Assembly (NCBI GenBank): GCA_018713585.1
Contig: DVON01000185.1
Coordinates: forward strand, 1-36,293
Length of the DNA stretch: 36,293 nt
Direction of reading: 5' to 3'
Source: Candidatus Pullilachnospira stercoravium
GTDB taxonomy: Bacteria > Bacillota > Clostridia > Lachnospirales > Lachnospiraceae
The position numbers were made by a program, and so were the translations under genes. Shown piece after piece: positions 4,151 through 18,575 of the stretch. The notes below the pieces were generated by a model. It did no database searches, was not told the DNA's origin, and saw nothing but the letters and a program-made list of their open reading frames with translations. Within the stretch, counting starts at the first letter, position 1. Every line of letters begins with the position of its first letter.

Positions 4151-4293
4151 AACGGACAGCGAACGGCTTTGCCGTGAGCCGCCCGCAGTATCGCAGGGAT
4201 CAGATAAGGGAAGGAACTTCCACTGTCTGATCAGGAAGGACAGAGGGTATGCCGCTTTTTAAAGCGTGGAAATCAGGAAGGAGGAATGCGCGG

Positions 4294-4983
4294 ATGATGA
4301 GGAATAAGGACTGGATGATGCTGAACGGCATCATTTACCGGATCTATGCCACGGAGGATTTTCGCAAAATGCAGCGGATTTTCCTGGAACGGATGCGCAC
4401 GCTGATTCCTTTTGACGGAGCCGTTTTCCGGCTGGCGGACGGCCGGAAGGGGGAGCAGGCGGTCTGCGGGGAAATGACCTGCGGGGAGGAGTTTATGGAA
4501 AGGGAACTTCAGGAGGAGCTGTATGGCGGACAGAGCATGGTTTATCGGGAGACGGATTTTGCGGATCCGGGACATCAGCGGGGATATGGACTGCGGATGA
4601 CGCTGGTACACAATGAAAAATATCTGGGAACCGTGGCCTTTTTCCGCTCCCCTGAGCGGGAGGATTTTCAGTACCGCGATATTTTTCTGCTGGATATGGT
4701 AAAAGAGCATCTGGCATTCCGGCTGGACGAAGGAGAAAAAACGCGGGTCAGGCAGGAGGATGTACGGATGGAGGAGGAACTGGCGGTAAACTGCGGGCTC
4801 ACCAGAAGGGAAATGGAAATTCTCCGGTGTATCATGGAAGGGCAGGGAAACCGGCAGATCGGCGAGACGCTGGTGATCACGGAAAATACCGTGAAAAAGC
4901 ATATCCTGAATATTTACCGGAAGCTGGGCGTCCGCAGCCGTGTACAGCTTTTTAAGAAGATACAGGGCATGGAAGAGGAGTAA
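4294..4983 (+). CDS. LuxR-type DNA-binding regulator (first of two relatives)
   Basis: Transcription regulator of about 229 aa. The C-terminal 60 residues form a LuxR/GerE helix-turn-helix: LTRREMEILRCIMEG, then NRQIGETLVITENTVKKHI and NIYRKLGVRSR. The N-terminal 160 residues look like a GAF-type sensing region; the ligand cannot be named. I chose the ATG at 4294, which has AAGGAGG nine bases upstream and makes the N-terminus (LNGIIYRIYATEDF) match that of the second regulator at 9404-10168 (FNDIVYHLYACRTL). An in-frame ATG at 4249 has a poorer site and would add 15 residues. The gene stands directly ahead of the P-II and pot genes, which makes polyamine uptake a plausible target. Confidence 0.85.
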   Translation: MMRNKDWMMLNGIIYRIYATEDFRKMQRIFLERMRTLIPFDGAVFRLADGRKGEQAVCGEMTCGEEFMERELQEELYGGQSMVYRETDFADPGHQRGYGLRMTLVHNEKYLGTVAFFRSPEREDFQYRDIFLLDMVKEHLAFRLDEGEKTRVRQEDVRMEEELAVNCGLTRREMEILRCIMEGQGNRQIGETLVITENTVKKHILNIYRKLGVRSRVQLFKKIQGMEEE

Positions 4984-5023: not shown

Positions 5024-5053
5024 TTGTAAAGACAGGCAGAAACGGTATATGAT
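5024..5053 (+). promoter_or_regulatory. Possible promoter for the P-II/pot operon
   Basis: TTGTAA (5024-5029) and TATGAT (5048-5053) are spaced by 18 bases in the gap before the P-II gene. The predicted start near 5060 lies immediately ahead of the hairpin at 5063-5093, so the leader would begin with a terminator-like structure. Confidence 0.5.
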
Positions 5054-5062
5054 AACACCATT

Positions 5063-5100
5063 AAGAGCAAAGGCGCCGAAATCCTTTGCTCTTTTTGTTT
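5063..5100 (+). terminator. Terminator after the LuxR-type gene, or leader attenuator of the P-II/pot operon
   Basis: AAGAGCAAAGG (5063-5073) pairs perfectly with CCTTTGCTCTT (5083-5093), followed by a T-rich run. It sits 80 bases past the regulator stop codon and 27 bases before the P-II start. It may end the upstream transcript, or, because a promoter-like pair lies just before it, control readthrough into the P-II and pot genes. Confidence 0.75.
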
Positions 5101-5126: not shown

Positions 5127-5486
5127 ATGAAAGAATTGATGATTATTATAAGGCCGGAGAAACTGGAGACCGTGAAGAATATCATGGAGGAGATGGGCTG
5201 CGGCGGTATGACCATTTCCAGCGTGATGGGCTGCGGAACCCAGAAAGGGTACGATGAGGAATCGGGACCGTACCAGAACCAGATCAAAGGCTTTAAAACC
5301 ACCATCAACCTGCTGCCGAAGATCCGGGTGGAGGCGGTGATGAGAGACAGTATGGTGGAGCCCGTCATCGCCAGAATCCGGGAGGAACTGGCGGAAGGCC
5401 ATGTGGGAGACGGAAAAATCTTTATCCGCAGCGTGGAGGATGTGGTCCGCATCCGTACCGGTGAGCGGGGCAAGAAAGCATTATAA
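5127..5486 (+). CDS. P-II family signalling protein with extended, altered T-loop
   Basis: Small trimeric regulator, 119 aa, that in this family binds ATP/ADP and 2-oxoglutarate and controls a partner through its T-loop. Family marks are the GxxQKG entry to the T-loop with Gln39, the LPK exit with Lys65 (E. coli Lys58), the B-loop HVGDGKIFI and the C-terminal VRIRTGERG. The T-loop between Gly41 and LPK is seven residues longer than in E. coli GlnB, and the aligned uridylylation Tyr51 is replaced within GFKTTINLLPK, although other Tyr residues (42, 49) are present. The gene has a GGGAGGAGG site and ends only 21 bases before potA, so the two are almost surely co-transcribed. No ammonium transporter or glutamine synthetase gene is nearby; the transporter next door is for polyamines. 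Confidence 0.92.
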   Translation: MKELMIIIRPEKLETVKNIMEEMGCGGMTISSVMGCGTQKGYDEESGPYQNQIKGFKTTINLLPKIRVEAVMRDSMVEPVIARIREELAEGHVGDGKIFIRSVEDVVRIRTGERGKKAL

Positions 5487-5507
5487 CGGAAACAGAGGTG
5501 GAGCGAT

Positions 5508-6623
5508 TTGGGAGAAAGAAAAGTTACGGTGAAGCTGGAAAAGCTGAACAAGGTATATGACGGCCAGAACCATGTGGTGAAGGATCTGGATCTGGAGGTC
5601 TATGAAGGAGAATTTCTGACGCTGCTGGGTTCCTCCGGGTGCGGGAAGACCACGACCCTGCGGATGATCGCCGGTTTTGAAACTCCCACCGGAGGAAACG
5701 TATATGTGGAAGGCGAGAACATGGAAAACAGAGAGCCCTATGAGCGGAATGTCAACACCGTGTTCCAGAGTTACGCGCTGTTTCCCCATATGACGGTATT
5801 TGACAATGTGGCTTACGGACTTACCATCCGCAAGGTGAAGAAACAGGAAATCCGGGAACGGGTGCTGCATATGCTGGAGCTGGTGCAGCTGGGAGGTTTT
5901 GAAAAACGGTATCCTTCCCAGCTCTCCGGCGGTCAGAAACAGCGGGTGGCCATTGCCCGGGCGCTGATCAACCGGCCCCGGGTGCTGCTGCTGGATGAAC
6001 CTCTGGGAGCGCTGGATCTGAAGCTTCGCAAGCAGATGCAGCTGGAGCTGAAACGGCTGCAGAGAAAGCTGAACATCACCTTCATCTATGTCACCCACGA
6101 TCAGGAGGAGGCGCTGACCATGAGCGACCGGATCGCCATTATGCGGGACGGCGTTCTGGAACAGGTGGGGACGCCGCTGGAGATCTATGAAAATCCGGCC
6201 ACCCGTTTTGTGGCCACCTTTATCGGGGAGACCAATCTGTTTGAGGGATATATCAGCAGCAAGAAGGGCGAGGAGATGACGGTCACGGTGGAGCCGGGAA
6301 TGATCCGGGCCTGCGGCACAGGATTCCGGGAGCGGGAGATGGTGGCGGTTTCCGTCAGACCGGAGCGCATGAAATTTTCCTCCGTTCCCGTGGAAGGATT
6401 TACCATTTCCGGTGAGATCCGGGAGCAGATTTACGCCGGCTCCGTGTTGAAAACCATTGTGGTTCTCCCAAATGGAAATGAGGTCCGCATCGAGAGACTT
6501 TCCAGTGAGGAACTTCCCAAAAGCGGCAGGGTCTATCTTTACTGGAACAAAGGGGATGAAAAACTGCTGCATTCCCTGGATGATGTATTTTTCGACGCTG
6601 TGGAAAATGTAAAAATGGCTTAG
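5508..6623 (+). CDS. potA: Spermidine/putrescine importer ATPase PotA
   Basis: ATP-hydrolysing subunit of the polyamine importer, 371 aa. The start codon is TTG with GAGGTGG just upstream; no better ATG fits the N-terminus. Visible motifs are Walker A GSSGCGKTTT (Lys47), signature LSGGQKQR starting at residue 139, Walker B LLLDEPLGALD near 160, and the switch His in YVTHDQEEALTMSD. The C-terminal TOBE-like domain carries VSVRPERMKF. FIGETNLFEG after the ATPase domain is typical of PotA. It lies directly behind the P-II gene and 11 bases before potB. The family can also serve other cations, but with PotD and the putrescine genes downstream a polyamine is the best guess. Confidence 0.93.
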   Translation: MGERKVTVKLEKLNKVYDGQNHVVKDLDLEVYEGEFLTLLGSSGCGKTTTLRMIAGFETPTGGNVYVEGENMENREPYERNVNTVFQSYALFPHMTVFDNVAYGLTIRKVKKQEIRERVLHMLELVQLGGFEKRYPSQLSGGQKQRVAIARALINRPRVLLLDEPLGALDLKLRKQMQLELKRLQRKLNITFIYVTHDQEEALTMSDRIAIMRDGVLEQVGTPLEIYENPATRFVATFIGETNLFEGYISSKKGEEMTVTVEPGMIRACGTGFREREMVAVSVRPERMKFSSVPVEGFTISGEIREQIYAGSVLKTIVVLPNGNEVRIERLSSEELPKSGRVYLYWNKGDEKLLHSLDDVFFDAVENVKMA

Positions 6624-6634
6624 GAGGTGATGGG

Positions 6635-7495
6635 ATGAAGACAGAGAAAAAAGATATGGCAGCCGCCCTCCCCATGGTGGGGCCGGTGACGCTGTGGCTT
6701 CTGTTTTTTGTGGCGCTTCCGCTGATCTTTGTGGCGGTGATCAGTTTCTGCAGCATTGACCAGAACTACAACATTCAATTTCAGTTTACGCTGGAAAATT
6801 ACCGGAGACTGTTTGACGCCAGCTACCTTCAGATTTACGCCCAGTCGTTTCTGATCGCCGCGCTGACCACCGTGCTGTGCATCCTTCTGGGATACCCCTT
6901 CGCGTTTCTCATCGCCAGGACGTTTCCCAAGCGGAAGGCGCCGCTCTACATGCTGGTGATCATTCCTTTCTGGACCAATTCCCTGATCCGGATCTACGGA
7001 TGGAGATCGTTTCTGGGAACCAACGGATGGCTCAACAGCCTTCTGCAGGCGCTGCATCTTACGGATACGCCGGTGGATTTTCTGTTTCATCAGGGGACGA
7101 CGGTGCTGGGCATGGTTTACTGCCTGTTCCCCTTCATGGTGCTCCCGCTGTACACGGCTATTGAAAAGCTGGATCAAAGTCTGCTGGAGGCTTCCTCGGA
7201 TCTGGGAGCGAAAGGACCGGTTACCTTTTTCCGGGTGGTGCTGCCGCTGACAGCCAGCGGTATTTTTTCCGGTTCCATCATGGTTTTCATTCCGTGCCTG
7301 GGATTCTTCTATGTGTCGGACATTCTGGGAGGCGGAAACGCGGATGTGATCGGAAATCTCATCGAACGGCAGTTTCAGAGCGGAAATAACTGGCCGCTGG
7401 GGGCGGCGCTGTCCATTATTCTGATTGTGATAACCCTCCTGCTGGTAAAGCTTTACCAGAAGTGCGGGGGCAGCATGGAAAGTCTGGGGGTGTAG
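6635..7495 (+). CDS. potB: Polyamine importer permease PotB
   Basis: First membrane subunit of the importer, 286 aa, with about six helices (first VGPVTLWLLFFVALPLIFVA). The PotB-type stretch IIPFWTNSLIRIYGWRSFLG near residues 108-127 is characteristic of spermidine/putrescine permeases. The docking loop follows at SLLEASSDLGAKGPVTFFRV. The site AGGAGGTGATGGG precedes the ATG. It ends TAG three bases before the potC start. Confidence 0.93.
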   Translation: MKTEKKDMAAALPMVGPVTLWLLFFVALPLIFVAVISFCSIDQNYNIQFQFTLENYRRLFDASYLQIYAQSFLIAALTTVLCILLGYPFAFLIARTFPKRKAPLYMLVIIPFWTNSLIRIYGWRSFLGTNGWLNSLLQALHLTDTPVDFLFHQGTTVLGMVYCLFPFMVLPLYTAIEKLDQSLLEASSDLGAKGPVTFFRVVLPLTASGIFSGSIMVFIPCLGFFYVSDILGGGNADVIGNLIERQFQSGNNWPLGAALSIILIVITLLLVKLYQKCGGSMESLGV

Positions 7496-7498
7496 CGG

Positions 7499-8299
7499 AT
7501 GAACAGAAACGGCAAAAAGAAAATGAAAAGAGGACTGGGAGTGGCATACTGTACGCTGATCTACCTGTTCCTGTTTCTGCCCATCGCCGTGGTGGCGGCC
7601 AATTCTTTCAACGCTTCCACCACAAAGCCCTACCTGTCCTGGAAAGGATTTACCCTGGACTGGTACGTCCGGCTTTTTGACAACGGATCGCTGCTGGAGG
7701 CTTTTGGAAATACCATGCTGATTGCCGCTGCCAGTACGGTGCTTTCCACCGTGATCGGCACGCTGGGGGCGGTGGGAATGTACCGGTACAAATTCCGGGG
7801 GAAGAAGACCGTTGACGCGCTGCTTTATATTCCGGTGGTGATTCCGGAAATAGTGCTGGGAATTTCCCTTCTGACGCTGTTTTCCAGAACGGGGATCCCC
7901 AGGGGGCTTTTCACCCTGATCCTGGCTCATACCACCTTCTGTATTCCGTATGTGATCTTCAATGTGCGGGCCAGGCTGGCCGGCTATGATGATTCGGTGG
8001 AGGAAGCGTCCATGGATCTGGGGGCCGGAAGGGTGCAGACCTTTCTGCGTATCACGCTTCCTGTGCTGGCGCCGGGCATCGGCGGAGGCGCCCTGCTGGC
8101 ATTTACCCTCTCCATCGATGATGTGATCATCAGTTACTTCACCAACGGCCAGGTGAGCACCTTCCCGCTGAAGGTGATGGAGAGTATCAAAAGCGGCGTA
8201 TCGCCGGATGTGAACGCCTTGTCCGTGCTGATCCTGACCGGCACCATCGCGGTGGTGGCATTGACCCAGAGCGGTCTGCTGAAAAAGAAGAGAAACTGA
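7499..8299 (+). CDS. potC: Polyamine importer permease PotC
   Basis: Second membrane subunit, 266 aa. The first helix (VAYCTLIYLFLFLPIAVVAA) is followed by NSFNASTTKPYLSWKGFTLD and WYVRLFDN, the usual PotC opening. The middle has YIPVVIPEIVLGISLLTLF and the docking loop SVEEASMDLGAGRVQTFLRI. FTLSIDDVIISYFTNG is a hallmark of PotC. The start lies three bases after potB, so the two are tightly coupled. Confidence 0.93.
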   Translation: MNRNGKKKMKRGLGVAYCTLIYLFLFLPIAVVAANSFNASTTKPYLSWKGFTLDWYVRLFDNGSLLEAFGNTMLIAAASTVLSTVIGTLGAVGMYRYKFRGKKTVDALLYIPVVIPEIVLGISLLTLFSRTGIPRGLFTLILAHTTFCIPYVIFNVRARLAGYDDSVEEASMDLGAGRVQTFLRITLPVLAPGIGGGALLAFTLSIDDVIISYFTNGQVSTFPLKVMESIKSGVSPDVNALSVLILTGTIAVVALTQSGLLKKKRN

Positions 8300-8322: not shown

Positions 8323-9375
8323 ATGAAAAAAAGAGTGTGTGCAGGTTTGGTGATTTTATCGGCGATGCTTTCCATGACCGGCTGCGGAAGCGGCGGTGGA
8401 AGCGGCGATGCAGGGGAACTGAACGTGTTTATCTGGACAGAATACGTTCCGGATTCGGTGGTGGAGGCCTTTGAGGAGGAGACAGGGATTTCGGTGAATG
8501 TGACCACCTACTCCTCCAATGAGGATATGCTGGCGAAAGTAAAATCAGAGACCGCCGGAGCCTATGATATTGTACAGCCCAGTGATTATATGGTGGAACA
8601 GATGGCCGCCCAGGATATGCTGCTGGAGCTGGATACGGACCGGCTGGAGAACCTGGATAATATCGGGGAAGCCTACCGGAATCCCTCCTATGATCCCGAA
8701 GGAAAGTACGCGGTGCCCTACATGGGCGGTGTGGCCGCCATCGCGGTGAATACGGATATGATTCAGACGGAAGTGACCTCCTATGCAGATCTGTTCACCG
8801 AAGACTTTCAGGACAGTCTGGTGGTGCTGGACGATTACCGGGCGGTGATCGGCATGGCAGCCCGCAGCATCGGCCTGAGCATGAATGAGACCGATCCGGA
8901 TAATCTGGAACTGATCAGGGAACAGACCCTGAAGCTGAAGGACAATATCAAACTGTATGACAGTGACAGTCCCAAATCCGCGCTGATCGCCGGGGACTGT
9001 TCGGCAGGTGTCTGCTGGAGCGCTGAAATCGCCCTGGCCATGGAAGAGAATCCCAGCATCGAAATCGTATTCCCGGAGGAAGGCCCGTATATCTTTATGG
9101 ATAACTGGTGCATAACCAAAGACGCGAAGAATGTGGATGCCGCCTACCAGTTTATCGATTACATGCTGCGGGCGGAAACCGCACAGCAGGTATCAGAGGA
9201 ATTCCCGTACTTGCAGCCCAACACGGCAGCCATGGATCTTCTGGGAGAGGAATATTCCTCCAATCCGGCCAAGAATGTGCCGGAGGATGTGATCGCCTCC
9301 GGAGAGTATGTGCAGAACCTGGATACGGATTCCCTGGCGGTATACGATTCCATCTGGACAGAACTGAAAAAATAA
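8323..9375 (+). CDS. potD: Spermidine/putrescine-binding lipoprotein PotD
   Basis: Extracellular capture protein of the importer, 350 aa. The signal peptide ends in a lipobox SMTGC with the lipidated Cys at residue 21, then a Gly/Ser linker. The mature part starts LNVFIWTEYVPDSVVEAFEE, the PotD/PotF pattern, followed by YDIVQPSDYMVEQMAAQDML. Later stretches AVPYMGGVAAIAVN and IVFPEEGPYIFMDNWCI match the ligand-pocket lobes of the family, where Asp/Glu and Trp residues hold the amines. The preceding AGGAGGAAAAGGAGG region gives a strong ribosome site. It closes the operon; a strong hairpin terminator follows. Whether putrescine or spermidine is preferred cannot be read here. Confidence 0.93.
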   Translation: MKKRVCAGLVILSAMLSMTGCGSGGGSGDAGELNVFIWTEYVPDSVVEAFEEETGISVNVTTYSSNEDMLAKVKSETAGAYDIVQPSDYMVEQMAAQDMLLELDTDRLENLDNIGEAYRNPSYDPEGKYAVPYMGGVAAIAVNTDMIQTEVTSYADLFTEDFQDSLVVLDDYRAVIGMAARSIGLSMNETDPDNLELIREQTLKLKDNIKLYDSDSPKSALIAGDCSAGVCWSAEIALAMEENPSIEIVFPEEGPYIFMDNWCITKDAKNVDAAYQFIDYMLRAETAQQVSEEFPYLQPNTAAMDLLGEEYSSNPAKNVPEDVIASGEYVQNLDTDSLAVYDSIWTELKK

Positions 9376-9385
9376 ACAACAGCAG

Positions 9386-9425
9386 AAAAAGGGACAGATC
9401 CGGTCAGAGGGTCTGTCCCTTTTTT
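9386..9425. terminator. Bidirectional terminator between potD and the second LuxR-type gene
   Basis: AAAAAGGGACAGA (9386-9398) pairs with TCTGTCCCTTTTT (9412-9424). It gives a T-run on either strand. The stop codon of the minus-strand regulator (9404-9406) lies in the loop, so the last six codons of that gene are also one arm of the terminator. Confidence 0.9.
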
Positions 9426-10168
9426 AAGAGCTCCCAGCGGGAGGAAACCCCCGTTTTCCGGAAGATGTTCTGCATATGCTTCTGAAGTGTGTGAGCGGAA
9501 ATTCCCAGCGAGTCCGTGATCTCCTCGTTGGAGGCGAAGGTCAGCAGAAGCTGCAGAATCTGGGTTTCCCGGGGGGTCAGCCCGAAGGTCAGCCGGAGCT
9601 GTTCCAGACGATTTTCGTCCGTCTGTGCCTGCTGCGGCCGTCCCTCCAGAAGATTGTGCAGGGCCGCGTTCAGATGGATGCCCAGGGAGCGGAGCCGGAA
9701 CATATCCTCGTTGGTAAATGTCCCATCGATGCGGGTGTGATATAAAGTGAGAATTCCCAGCATCTTCTGCCGGTAGACGATACTGTACTGGATCGAATCA
9801 AAAACATGATACTTCTGATAACAGCTCCGGTAGATGGGGGAGCTGAGACGCTTTTCCTCCGGAACCAGCTCGCTTTCCCGGACCAGCGTGGACTCCTTAG
9901 TGTGAAGAATCCAAAGAAGCGGATCCTCATCCAGACATTCCATATATTTTTTTTCAGCCTCCTCAAAAGAATCCGGTATACACAGGGCCCGCTCAAACCG
10001 GATCTCATCGGCAGCAGCCAGGGGATCTGTCAGCAGAATACTGGCACAGCTGTAGGGTACCAGCATTTTCAGAGGAACAAGAAAGTCGTTTTTCAGCTCC
10101 TCCAGGGTGCGGCAGGCATAAAGATGGTAGACGATATCGTTGAAAATAAAGAATATGTTTTTGTCCAT
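9404..10168 (-). CDS. LuxR-type DNA-binding regulator (second of two relatives)
   Basis: Transcription regulator of 254 aa, convergent with potD and divergent from patA. The C-terminus is a LuxR/GerE helix-turn-helix: LTPRETQILQLLLTFAS, then NEEITDSLGISAHTLQKHM and NIFRKTGVSSRWELLKK. The N-terminal 170 residues resemble a GAF-type sensor and share length and opening pattern with the regulator at 4294-4983, so the two are probably paralogs. AAAGGAG stands nine bases before the ATG. Its promoter carries a 9+9 base inverted repeat over the -35 box, which suggests autoregulation. The divergent position beside patA makes it a candidate controller of the putrescine catabolic genes. Confidence 0.88.
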   Translation of the reverse strand: MDKNIFFIFNDIVYHLYACRTLEELKNDFLVPLKMLVPYSCASILLTDPLAAADEIRFERALCIPDSFEEAEKKYMECLDEDPLLWILHTKESTLVRESELVPEEKRLSSPIYRSCYQKYHVFDSIQYSIVYRQKMLGILTLYHTRIDGTFTNEDMFRLRSLGIHLNAALHNLLEGRPQQAQTDENRLEQLRLTFGLTPRETQILQLLLTFASNEEITDSLGISAHTLQKHMQNIFRKTGVSSRWELLKKGQTL

Positions 10169-10454: not shown

Positions 10455-11825
10455 ATGGCAGAGAAACAACAGGTAATCAAGGATCTGGAACGGGTGATTT
10501 CACTGATTGAGACAGACAGTGATCAGATTCCGGAGGAAGAAAAAAAGAAGATGGTCAGCGAAACACTGGATCATTTTGACAATTACGTCAGCCCGGGCTG
10601 GCTGAAATACCGCAAATCCGTTTCTTCTGATTCGGAGAACGGCGCTGTTCTTGAGTGGCAGGATGAGGGTGCTTACTGCTATGGATTAAACGGTGAGAAA
10701 TTCATCGACTGTCTGGGCGGATTTGGCATCTACACCTGCGGCCACAGAAATCCTGCCATTCTGGATGTGGTGAAGGCACAGCTGGATCACCAGGCACTTC
10801 ATTCCCAGGAACTTCTGGACCCCCTTCGCGGCTATCTTGCAAAGGCGGTGGCGGATATCACTCCGGGTGACCTGCAGTACTGCTTCTTCACCAACGGCGG
10901 AGCCGAGGCAGTGGAGATGTCCCTGAAGCTGGCCCGGATCGCCACCGGCGGCAGATGGTTTATTTCCACCGTGGGCGCTTTCCACGGGAAATCCATGGGA
11001 GCCGTCTCCATGGGAGGTAAGAGCACATACCGGATTCCGTACATCCCCATGGTGCAGCAGGTGCAGCATGTGGAGTACGGCAATGCGGAGGATATCCGCA
11101 AGGCCATACGGAATCTCCAGGCGGTGGGCGAAAAGGTGGCCGCGGTGATTCTGGAACCCATCCAGGGTGAGGCGGGTGTCATTGTTCCGCCGGAAGGATA
11201 TCTGACGGAGGTGCGTAAGATCTGTGACGAGACAGGCGTGGCCCTCATCTTCGATGAAATCCAGACGGGTATGGGACGGACAGGAACTATGTGGCGCTGT
11301 GAGGCGGAGGGCGTGGTACCGGATATCATGACCTTTGGAAAGGCTTTCGGCGGCGGTATCATGCCCATCACCGGAATTATCTGCAAACCGAAAATGTGGG
11401 TACAGGATCTGATTGACAATCCCTGGCTTCTGGGATCCCCCACTTTCGGCGGCAATCCGGTCTGCTGCTCCGCAGCTATCGCCACCATCAAATATATGCT
11501 GGAGAATGATATCCCCGGTGTCTGCCGCGAGAAAGGAAAAATGCTGAAAGCGGGGCTGCAACAGCTGGCGGAGAAATATCCGGAGGTAATCCAGGAGGTG
11601 CGGGGTGTAGGCCTGATGCTGGCGGTAGAATTTAACACCTGTGAGCTGGGTTACGAATGTGCCAAAGGCCTGTTTGCCAGAAGAGTCATGACGGCGGGAA
11701 CACTGGTGAACGCAAAAACCATCCGTTTTGAACCCACGGCAGTGATTTCTGAACAAGATATCAGGGATGTGATCAGCCGGATGGATGAGGCGCTGGCCGA
11801 TACGAAGAAGACATTTGGCCTGTGA
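10455..11825 (+). CDS. patA: Putrescine aminotransferase
   Basis: Class III PLP enzyme, 456 aa, expected to move the amino group of putrescine to 2-oxoglutarate, giving 4-aminobutanal (which cyclises to pyrroline) and glutamate in the cytoplasm. It follows the E. coli PatA (YgjG) pattern closely: GWLKYRKSVSSDSENGAV, FIDCLGGFGIYTCGHRNP, LHSQELLDPLRGYLAK, FTNGGAEAVEMSLKLA, GAFHGKSMGA and LEPIQGEAGVIVPPEGYL. The PLP lysine is Lys296 in FGKAFGGGIMPI. The length matches E. coli PatA (about 459 aa). GGAAGGGAG precedes the ATG. A terminator hairpin ahead of it and another after it frame the gene, so its level may differ from that of the downstream genes. Ornithine or acetylornithine are less likely substrates given this match and the cluster. 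Confidence 0.93.
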   Translation: MAEKQQVIKDLERVISLIETDSDQIPEEEKKKMVSETLDHFDNYVSPGWLKYRKSVSSDSENGAVLEWQDEGAYCYGLNGEKFIDCLGGFGIYTCGHRNPAILDVVKAQLDHQALHSQELLDPLRGYLAKAVADITPGDLQYCFFTNGGAEAVEMSLKLARIATGGRWFISTVGAFHGKSMGAVSMGGKSTYRIPYIPMVQQVQHVEYGNAEDIRKAIRNLQAVGEKVAAVILEPIQGEAGVIVPPEGYLTEVRKICDETGVALIFDEIQTGMGRTGTMWRCEAEGVVPDIMTFGKAFGGGIMPITGIICKPKMWVQDLIDNPWLLGSPTFGGNPVCCSAAIATIKYMLENDIPGVCREKGKMLKAGLQQLAEKYPEVIQEVRGVGLMLAVEFNTCELGYECAKGLFARRVMTAGTLVNAKTIRFEPTAVISEQDIRDVISRMDEALADTKKTFGL

Positions 11826-16503: not shown

Positions 16504-16542
16504 GAAGGCCATCGGCGGATGGCAGAGAGAGGAGAATGTGAT

Positions 16543-17157
16543 ATGACGAAAAGCAAGTATGTGGTGACCATCACCAGACAGTTCGGAAGCCTGGGAAGGC
16601 CCATCGCCAAACGGATGAGCGAGATTCTGGATATCGGTTACTATGACCGGGATCTGGTGGATGAGGCGGCGAAGAAACTGAAGCTGCCAGTATCGGTGGT
16701 GGATAAGGAGGAGGAGTCGGCGAAAAAGGTCCCACTGAATCCCTTTACCCGCATGAAGTATCCGCTGGGAAAAGGCACCAGCGATACCCAGGACGCTATC
16801 TTTGAGGCACAGCAGAATATTATACAGTTCCTGGCGGAAAAGGAGACCTGCATCATCGTGGGCCGCTGCTCGGATTTCATCCTGGAAGAGATGAAAAATG
16901 CCATGCACATCTATATTTACGCTCCCTACGATGTGAGAGTGCAGCAGAGTGTGGATAATTTGAAGATGGATATTCAGGAAGCCCGCCAGATGATCGTGGA
17001 TGTGGATGAGGCCAGGGATTCTTATCACATGCATTACGCGGGCTATCTGCCGGACGATAAGAATCACAAGGACATTATGATTGACAGCAGCTTCCTGGGG
17101 GTGGAAAAAACTGCCCAGTTTCTTGCGGAGGCAGTCAGAAGAAAATTCGGGGCATGA
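16543..17157 (+). CDS. Cytidylate-kinase-like P-loop protein
   Basis: Protein of 204 aa from the cytidylate-kinase-like family common in Clostridia. It opens YVVTITRQFGSLGRPIAKRM, an altered P-loop where relatives usually have GSGGR; here Leu replaces the second variable Gly. Other family marks are YYDRDLVDEAA, CIIVGRCSDFIL and the C-terminal stretch HYAGYLPDDKNHKDIMIDSS. I chose the ATG at 16543, which has GAGAGGAG upstream, over an in-frame ATG at 16519. Its substrate is unknown. It lies within a chain of polyamine-degrading enzymes, between the aldehyde dehydrogenase (39 bases) and gabT (38 bases), where a nucleotide kinase has no obvious job. Phosphorylation of a pathway compound or a regulatory role is possible. 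Confidence 0.85.
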   Translation: MTKSKYVVTITRQFGSLGRPIAKRMSEILDIGYYDRDLVDEAAKKLKLPVSVVDKEEESAKKVPLNPFTRMKYPLGKGTSDTQDAIFEAQQNIIQFLAEKETCIIVGRCSDFILEEMKNAMHIYIYAPYDVRVQQSVDNLKMDIQEARQMIVDVDEARDSYHMHYAGYLPDDKNHKDIMIDSSFLGVEKTAQFLAEAVRRKFGA

Positions 17158-17195: not shown

Positions 17196-18575
17196 ATGAG
17201 CGAATTAAGAGAAGCATTACCGGAAATTAAAACGGAGACGCTGCCGGGGCCTAAGGCAGCCGCTGTGCTGGAGCGCAGAAAAAAGATTATGCCGGACGCC
17301 ATCCGGTGCGTCTATCCCTGTGTCATGGAACAGGCAGAGGGAGCCATGATTGAGGATGTGGACGGAAACCGCTTCCTAGACTGGGTGGGCGGCGTGGGCG
17401 TCCTGAATGTGGGACACTGCCATCCCGAACTGGTGGAGGCTGTCCGCCAGCAGGCCGGAAAATATTTTCACGGCATGGCCAATATTGTGACCCATGAGCG
17501 GTATATTGAGCTGGCGGAAAAGTTGGCGGCTGTCACACCGGTAAAGGGAGAGGAAAAGAAGGTCATGTTTGCCAACAGCGGTGCCGAGGCGGATGAGAAT
17601 GCGGTGAAGATCGCAAAGGGATTTACGGAACGTCCCAACATCATCGTATTTTCCGGAGCTTTTCACGGCCGCACCATGCTGACCATGTCCATGACCGCGA
17701 AAAAAGCCTATTCCCGGGGGATGGGGCCCTTCCCCGACGGCGTATACCGGGCGGAGTTCCCCTATCTCTACCGGAAGCCGGAGCAGATGACGGAGGATGC
17801 CTATATCCGCTGGTGTGTGGACAGTGTGAAGGAGGTCTTTGAAAATGCCTCTCTGCCGGAATATGTGGCCGCCATGGTCATCGAGCCGCTGCAGGGAGAA
17901 GGAGGATTTATTCCGGCCCCCCTTTCGTTTGTAAAAGCCCTGAGAGAGATCTGTGACCAGTATGGAATCCTTCTGGTGGCAGATGAGGTGCAGACCGGAT
18001 TTTGCCGGACGGGCCGGTTGTTTGCCTGTGATTACTGGAAAGAAGCGGGCGTGGAGCCGGATATTCTGGCCACCGCGAAATCCATCGCGGGAGGAATTCC
18101 CCTCAGCGCGGTGATCGCCCGCAAAGAGATCATGGACGGGATTCCTGCAGGAATCATCGGCGGCACCTACGGAGGAAATGCCCTGGCCTGCGCGGCGGGC
18201 GTCAAGGTGCTGGAGGTCATTGAAAAAGAGAACCTGGCGCTGCGTTCCCGTCAGATCGGCGAAAAATGCCGGGAAAGATTCCTGAAATGGAAAGAAACGT
18301 TTGAGCAGGTGGGAGATGTCCGGGGCCTGGGAGCCATGCTGGGGGTGGAATTTGTAAAGGATAAAGCCACCAGGGAGCCGGATCCGCAGCTGGTATCCGA
18401 CATCATCCAGGAATGTGCCCGCCACGGACTGCTGGTGGAAAACGCCGGTATTCATAACAATGTGATCCGCTTCCTGGCCCCGCTGGTGATGACGGACGCG
18501 CAGCTGGAAGCCGGACTTGCCATTTATGAGGATGCCATCCGGGTATGCACAGAAAAAGGAGGTGCCGGATTATGA
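17196..18575 (+). CDS. gabT: 4-aminobutyrate aminotransferase
   Basis: Class III PLP enzyme of 459 aa expected to convert GABA and 2-oxoglutarate to succinate semialdehyde and glutamate. The GabT pattern is clear: FLDWVGGVGVLNVGHCHPEL, FANSGAEADENAVKIAKGF, FSGAFHGRTMLTMSMTAK, EPLQGEGGFIPAP, ADEVQTGFCRTGRLFACD, and Lys295 as the PLP lysine in ATAKSIAGGIPLSAV. It has a GAGGAG site. The last four bases overlap aguB (ATGA), so the two are coupled. It is distinct from PatA in the same cluster, and together they could take both nitrogen atoms of putrescine to glutamate. Confidence 0.9.
   Translation: MSELREALPEIKTETLPGPKAAAVLERRKKIMPDAIRCVYPCVMEQAEGAMIEDVDGNRFLDWVGGVGVLNVGHCHPELVEAVRQQAGKYFHGMANIVTHERYIELAEKLAAVTPVKGEEKKVMFANSGAEADENAVKIAKGFTERPNIIVFSGAFHGRTMLTMSMTAKKAYSRGMGPFPDGVYRAEFPYLYRKPEQMTEDAYIRWCVDSVKEVFENASLPEYVAAMVIEPLQGEGGFIPAPLSFVKALREICDQYGILLVADEVQTGFCRTGRLFACDYWKEAGVEPDILATAKSIAGGIPLSAVIARKEIMDGIPAGIIGGTYGGNALACAAGVKVLEVIEKENLALRSRQIGEKCRERFLKWKETFEQVGDVRGLGAMLGVEFVKDKATREPDPQLVSDIIQECARHGLLVENAGIHNNVIRFLAPLVMTDAQLEAGLAIYEDAIRVCTEKGGAGL

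Follow-up and report, generated by a model that had tools for sequence, protein, structure and literature searches.

What does a P-II signal protein control when its gene stands directly in front of a polyamine importer? The locus that raises this question lies in the window, by which we mean the whole 36,293-nt stretch of Candidatus Pullilachnospira stercoravium DNA that was analysed (contig C188 in our set of 397 Lachnospiraceae genomes).

The P-II gene, the pot operon and their surroundings

The P-II gene (potN) occupies positions 5127–5486 of the forward strand, behind a Shine–Dalgarno-like GGGAGGAGG 5′ of its ATG, and encodes a protein of 119 residues (Pfam P-II, PF00543, 93.2 bits, cut-off 25), here assigned to the PotN subfamily, that is 99% identical to the P-II of Candidatus Pullilachnospira intestinigallinarum. 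On the same strand follows potA (5508–6623, TTG start), whose product is an ABC-transporter ATPase (TIGR01187, 384 bits against a cut-off of 355.6) with a C-terminal TOBE domain (PF08402, TOBE_2). The initial annotation had placed the P-II gene 21 bases ahead of potA, and the two open reading frames, each above the cut-off of its model, leave exactly that spacer (5487–5507). Two permease genes, potB (6635–7495) and potC (7499–8299), and a gene for a substrate-binding lipoprotein, potD (8323–9375, SBP_bac_8), complete the forward-strand series; their best NCBIfam matches are PotB (296.8 bits), PotC (269.6 bits) and PotD (255.4 bits), in each case below the cut-off (348 at equivalog level, 326 and 582, respectively). 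The 21-nt gap suggests that the P-II gene and potABCD are co-transcribed. Upstream, also on the forward strand, is a gene for a LuxR-type (GerE) transcription regulator (4249–4983; Pfam GerE, 68.8 bits). A second LuxR-type regulator is encoded on the minus strand 3′ of potD (9404–10168), and together the two bracket the P-II–pot operon.

Farther downstream, patA (10455–11825, forward strand) is confirmed as a putrescine aminotransferase gene (NF008570, 689.7 bits, cut-off 612); it is also found 3′ of the pot genes at five related loci (L060, L061, L064, L068 and L069). GabT, which had been named beside PatA, is less firmly placed: the class-III aminotransferase encoded at 17196–18575 is matched best by 4-aminobutyrate transaminase models, at scores below the curated cut-offs (532 against 676 and 490 against 506.65). 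Also downstream of the pot genes are aguB, whose product is an N-carbamoylputrescine amidase (457.8 bits, cut-off 410), and genes for a Na+/H+ antiporter-family protein, an amidohydrolase, an aldehyde dehydrogenase and an iron alcohol dehydrogenase. From these family names, the region would be a cluster for polyamine uptake and putrescine degradation. Within it lies a gene for a cytidylate-kinase-like protein (16519–17157; PF13189, 144 bits) with no evident role there.

Where, then, are the genes of ammonium assimilation? The remark that neither amtB nor glnA is in view holds for the window, in which none was identified, but both are present elsewhere in the genome. Contig C122 encodes a single 576-residue protein consisting of AmtB with a C-terminal P-II domain (L037:4824–6551), and on contig C177 glnA adjoins a gene for an ANTAR regulator. 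The ordinary ammonium assimilation genes are thus sited outside the window. P-II matches within frames of about 570–680 residues are common across the Lachnospiraceae and are probably the same AmtB–P-II fusion. The genome also encodes a third, divergent P-II-like protein of about 226 residues (contig C227, L038:4868–5545), in which the P-II match is confined to the C-terminal half.

A pot-linked branch of the P-II family

Is the pairing of P-II and pot genes peculiar to this genome? A search of the 397 Lachnospiraceae genomes with the P-II protein gave a bimodal distribution, with a top group at 57–73% identity (99% within the same genus) and a background at about 50% or less. Pot genes adjoin the P-II gene at all of the top-group loci fetched, and those fetched from the background are mostly amtB-linked. 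The reverse search of the same genomes with PotB returned 16 homologues at 67–100% identity, every one paired with a P-II gene, which lies about 2 kb from PotB on the same contig in 15; in the exception (G313), the operon is cut by a contig end, with the P-II gene and potA on a different contig. A P-II gene is also near 14 more distant PotB matches (42–56% identity), the coordinates having been paired by hand and most of these operons re-read at the locus level. Conversely, when 20 pot loci with no listed P-II were fetched, a P-II gene was found in none, and three loci from the wider phylum (L079, L083 and L089) proved likewise to be pot-linked. The adjacency is far beyond chance and is present in every close relative; its absence from close relatives had been named in advance as grounds for giving up the proposal. 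At two loci (L073:6136–8648 and L077:883–3540), the P-II gene lies between two potA-like ATPase genes.

The best sequence match of the window P-II in the PDB is 7O4X (97.1 bits), which is PotN of Lentilactobacillus hilgardii and was traced to Iskhakova et al. 2022 through PMC9692440. That publication (FEBS J 289:5305, doi 10.1111/febs.16431) presents PotN as an “energy-state sensing PII subfamily”; PMC9692440 cites it for PotN and for the isolated C-terminal domain of L. hilgardii PotA, which it labels side by side. Coupling of a P-II protein to a polyamine importer is therefore a published arrangement, and the novelty first claimed for it falls away. When a mixed-P-II profile or a structure is used for the search, 7O4X is one of many P-II matches and not the top one; therefore, a tree is the better evidence for kinship with PotN.

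In a tree of 80 rows, the 26 pot-linked rows, PotN included, fall on one side of a branch with support of 99/96, and there is one change in 100% of the bootstrap trees. The branch holds at 98/84 when the T-loop columns are removed, and with ten further pot-linked rows (36 in total) there is still a single clade (SH-aLRT 95). The clade divides into two sub-branches, one of 18 rows with the window P-II (97/93) and one of eight rows with PotN (96/90), in a tree built on only 91–113 columns, so that its inner forks are soft. The rows were chosen by similarity to the window P-II or to PotN, and pot-linked P-IIs outside the clade would escape such a sample. Judged by its sequence, the window P-II is a member of the PotN subfamily, in a sub-branch with a long T-loop, and groups with PotN apart from the AmtB-linked P-IIs.

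The two proteins share the P-II fold and the loss of an AmtB-type T-loop, in addition to the clade. Linkage to Pot is probably also common to both, PotN and PotA of L. hilgardii having been studied together. They differ in that the window P-II is only about 45–52% identical to PotN, has a T-loop excess of seven residues against two in the alignment, and keeps Glu62, Val64 and Phe92, which in PotN are Ile, Tyr and Ile. A further difference is that, in the window sub-branch, luxR and a conserved leader hairpin usually come before the P-II gene.

Could the P-II protein instead act on one of these other neighbours, the LuxR regulator or PatA, and so control transcription or catabolism rather than transport? 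At most long-T-loop loci, a LuxR homologue is indeed encoded on the strand of the P-II gene, 45–300 nt upstream of it (about 1 kb at L071), and patA is downstream at several. In the PotN sub-branch and at several other loci, however, the P-II gene stays with the pot genes, and that LuxR gene and patA are not close; at L063, no LuxR homologue was found within 1.5 kb upstream of the P-II gene. We consider action on such a neighbour very unlikely.

The T-loop and the proposed partner of the P-II protein

Codons 5235–5321 of the forward strand specify residues 37–65, an extended T-loop. Across the span from 37 to 58 in GlnB numbering, the window P-II has 29 residues against 22 in E. coli GlnB; the other P-II reference sequences in the alignment come from PDB matches. 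The excess of seven residues, the retention of Gln39 and of the lysine in the LPK motif (K65, equivalent to K58), and the loss of Tyr51, where the aligned residue is Thr58, all agree with what was first reported. The excess is +2 to +7 in the 18 rows of the window sub-branch and 0 to +3 in the eight of the PotN sub-branch, and it is 0 in all 42 AmtB-linked P-IIs compared. Arg47 of E. coli GlnK plugs the AmtB pore. This arginine is present in 42 of the 42 AmtB-linked proteins, and a lysine takes its position in 16 of the 18 rows of the window sub-branch. The Tyr51 position is threonine in all 18 (Tyr51 itself occurs in 35 of the 42 AmtB-linked P-IIs), and the Glu50 position is lysine in 15. Both the changed T-loop and the attachment to pot genes are thus conserved throughout the clade, which supports the earlier proposal that this P-II is tied to the Pot importer and not to ammonium.

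A structural model of the window P-II is in agreement with its family: the AlphaFold core is mostly at pLDDT 88–95, with residues 41–53 and 55–57 of the T-loop disordered (below 50), and the model matches P-II structures in a structure search (best E 2.9e-13). The fold and the nucleotide-binding residues would also suit an ordinary GlnK still serving AmtB, its place beside the pot genes being accidental. Such a GlnK has an amtB neighbour and a 22-residue T-loop span with Arg47, and the window P-II has neither; it belongs to a separate clade, its T-loop is changed at both Arg47 and Tyr51, and the genome's amtB already carries a P-II of its own. That the gene is an ordinary GlnK we find scarcely credible.

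The window P-II has all six of the ATP contacts described for GlnK (Thr29, Gly87, Lys90, Phe92, Arg101 and Arg103; PMC8395244), and the nucleotide-site motifs of the B- and C-loops, GDGK and RIRTGERG, are also kept. We propose, with confidence somewhat better than even, that it is a PotN-type P-II which reads ATP/ADP, perhaps together with 2-oxoglutarate, and whose altered T-loop serves to gate PotABCD. As a trimer, the protein, specialised for the polyamine importer with which it would be co-transcribed, would hold ATP or ADP in the clefts between its subunits, as the kept nucleotide residues suggest. The position of the long T-loop, which lacks the AmtB-facing Arg47 and Tyr51 and has a different conserved motif, would depend on the nucleotide bound and possibly on 2-oxoglutarate as well. 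One of the resulting states, most likely that with ADP or at low energy, would let the T-loop face bind PotA, so that the uptake of polyamine driven by ATP is slowed or halted; the P-II would come off PotA again with MgATP (and with 2-oxoglutarate, if that is bound), and the imported polyamine would feed the downstream putrescine-catabolic genes. Within PotA there is no clear docking signature, P-II-linked and unlinked PotA sequences differing at three weakly discriminating positions. When the two proteins were modelled as a fused P-II–PotA chain, with the in-frame TAA read as Gln and without the trimer and the membrane subunits, both domains were modelled and the T-loop was disordered (pLDDT about 49), an outcome that, in such a chain, weighs neither for nor against docking.

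A P-II acting on the ATPase of an ABC importer has a counterpart in cyanobacteria, whose P-II binds the ATPases NrtC, NrtD and UrtE of the NrtABCD and UrtABCDE systems (PMC6603209). The mode proposed for the window P-II is alike in this respect. The cyanobacterial protein differs in being a general regulator with many targets and not a dedicated copy encoded with its transporter, and the substrates are nitrate and urea, not polyamine (PMC6603209).

Is the protein primarily a sensor of 2-oxoglutarate, adjusting polyamine uptake to the amount of amino acceptor available to PatA and GabT, as was first suggested? Every 2-oxoglutarate contact listed for GlnK (Arg9, Gln39, Gly41 and Lys58; PMC8395244) is intact in the window P-II, as R9, Q39, G41 and K65, and the downstream putrescine route looks complete. 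Moreover, Glu62 is kept in most of the window sub-branch and lost in PotN and most of its sub-branch. Intact contacts are a necessary sign and not a sufficient one, however, and are no proof of function. All four are found in PotN too, and yet its describers call it energy-state sensing; A. fulgidus GlnK2, which keeps the contact residues (row 3NCP), was not found to bind 2-oxoglutarate (PMC8395244). The AmtB-linked GlnK and GlnB proteins, of the same superfamily, likewise share the site residues for both ATP and 2-oxoglutarate. Because the residues cited occur equally in PotN and in AmtB-linked P-IIs, specific 2-oxoglutarate sensing is not supported as stated, and we regard it as rather unlikely to be the primary function. 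Glu62, Val64 and Phe92, kept here and absent from PotN, make it possible that ligand behaviour differs between the two. The mechanism in the initial annotation is thus partly supported: its outline is reasonable, its 2-oxoglutarate step is hypothetical, and its kind is already known.

If gating of the importer is indeed the role of these proteins, PotN-type control of polyamine import would be a recurring feature of gut Lachnospiraceae, coherent in its phylogeny and tied to putrescine catabolism, and the sensing of energy, perhaps also of nitrogen, may set the amount of polyamine that these bacteria take from the gut. The pot-linked P-IIs also offer a clean natural set of T-loop variants with which to study what leads a P-II to an ABC importer instead of AmtB.

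The leader hairpin and upstream signals

A candidate promoter for the operon, TTGTAA-18-TATGAT, lies at 5024–5053 on the forward strand; it is a weak candidate, as such sites occur in the window at chance frequency. It is followed at 5065–5096, on the same strand, by a terminator-like hairpin, GAGCAAAGG-CGCCGAAAT-CCTTTGCTC-TTTTTG (fold z −4.3). Counterparts whose 5′ arm is close to GCAAnGGAGC are in the same place at the long-T-loop loci with potN ahead of potABCD (L059–L072 and L074), mostly in the order luxR-potN-potABCD, and in many relatives −10-like motifs are seen by eye immediately 5′ of the hairpin. Across 15 hairpins, the stem positions pair in 88% of cells, and one pair is found as CG, GC and AU. 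Covariation is 0.366, against 0.194 for shuffled alignments (reached in 0 of 500) and 0.06–0.14 for slid ones, the structure having been picked from the same sequences, which favours it over the slid ones. Searched for in 16 of these genomes, the exact pattern was matched 11 times: six times at the leader, once upstream of luxR within that locus (G026) and four times at other places; the pattern read backward had no match. An Rfam scan of the window returned only a tRNA at the gathering threshold, and so the hairpin matches no described family there. Lying between the likely promoter and the start of potN, this covarying hairpin is a candidate attenuator.

A plain terminator for luxR is a disfavoured reading, because the hairpin stays by the P-II gene where luxR is about 1 kb away or was not found, and because the approximately 30 nt from hairpin to ATG in the window leave little room for a promoter. 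Antitermination by an ANTAR protein was also considered and rejected. Leaders of that type have two hairpins with hexanucleotide loops in which position 1 is A and position 4 is G (PMC3369931). The genome does encode an ANTAR protein, but the dual hexaloop is absent: there is one hairpin, and its loops, by eye, vary in length and sequence.

It is tempting to join the two levels. The long-T-loop sub-branch, unlike PotN, might integrate 2-oxoglutarate with ATP/ADP, and the operon might also be under the undescribed GCAAnGGAGC leader attenuator, so that polyamine uptake would be throttled twice by nitrogen/carbon state; this combined scheme is speculative, and we hold it to be improbable.

In some relatives, a candidate LuxR box, ACTTn..AAGT, followed by AAAATGGT, lies 5′ of the hairpin. 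The string AGTA-AAAATGGT occurs in six of the 16 leaders, where mononucleotide shuffles predict 0.01, a pattern chosen after looking and hence a lead only, and the palindrome by itself gives a weak signal (seven against a shuffle mean of 2.1 and maximum of 6). Finally, AmtB-linked P-II genes (L039–L057, upstream of glnK-amtB) often have a different terminator-like hairpin before the start, AAGGCGTTT.../ACGAGGACGTT..., and attenuation may therefore be general for the P-II operons of Lachnospiraceae.
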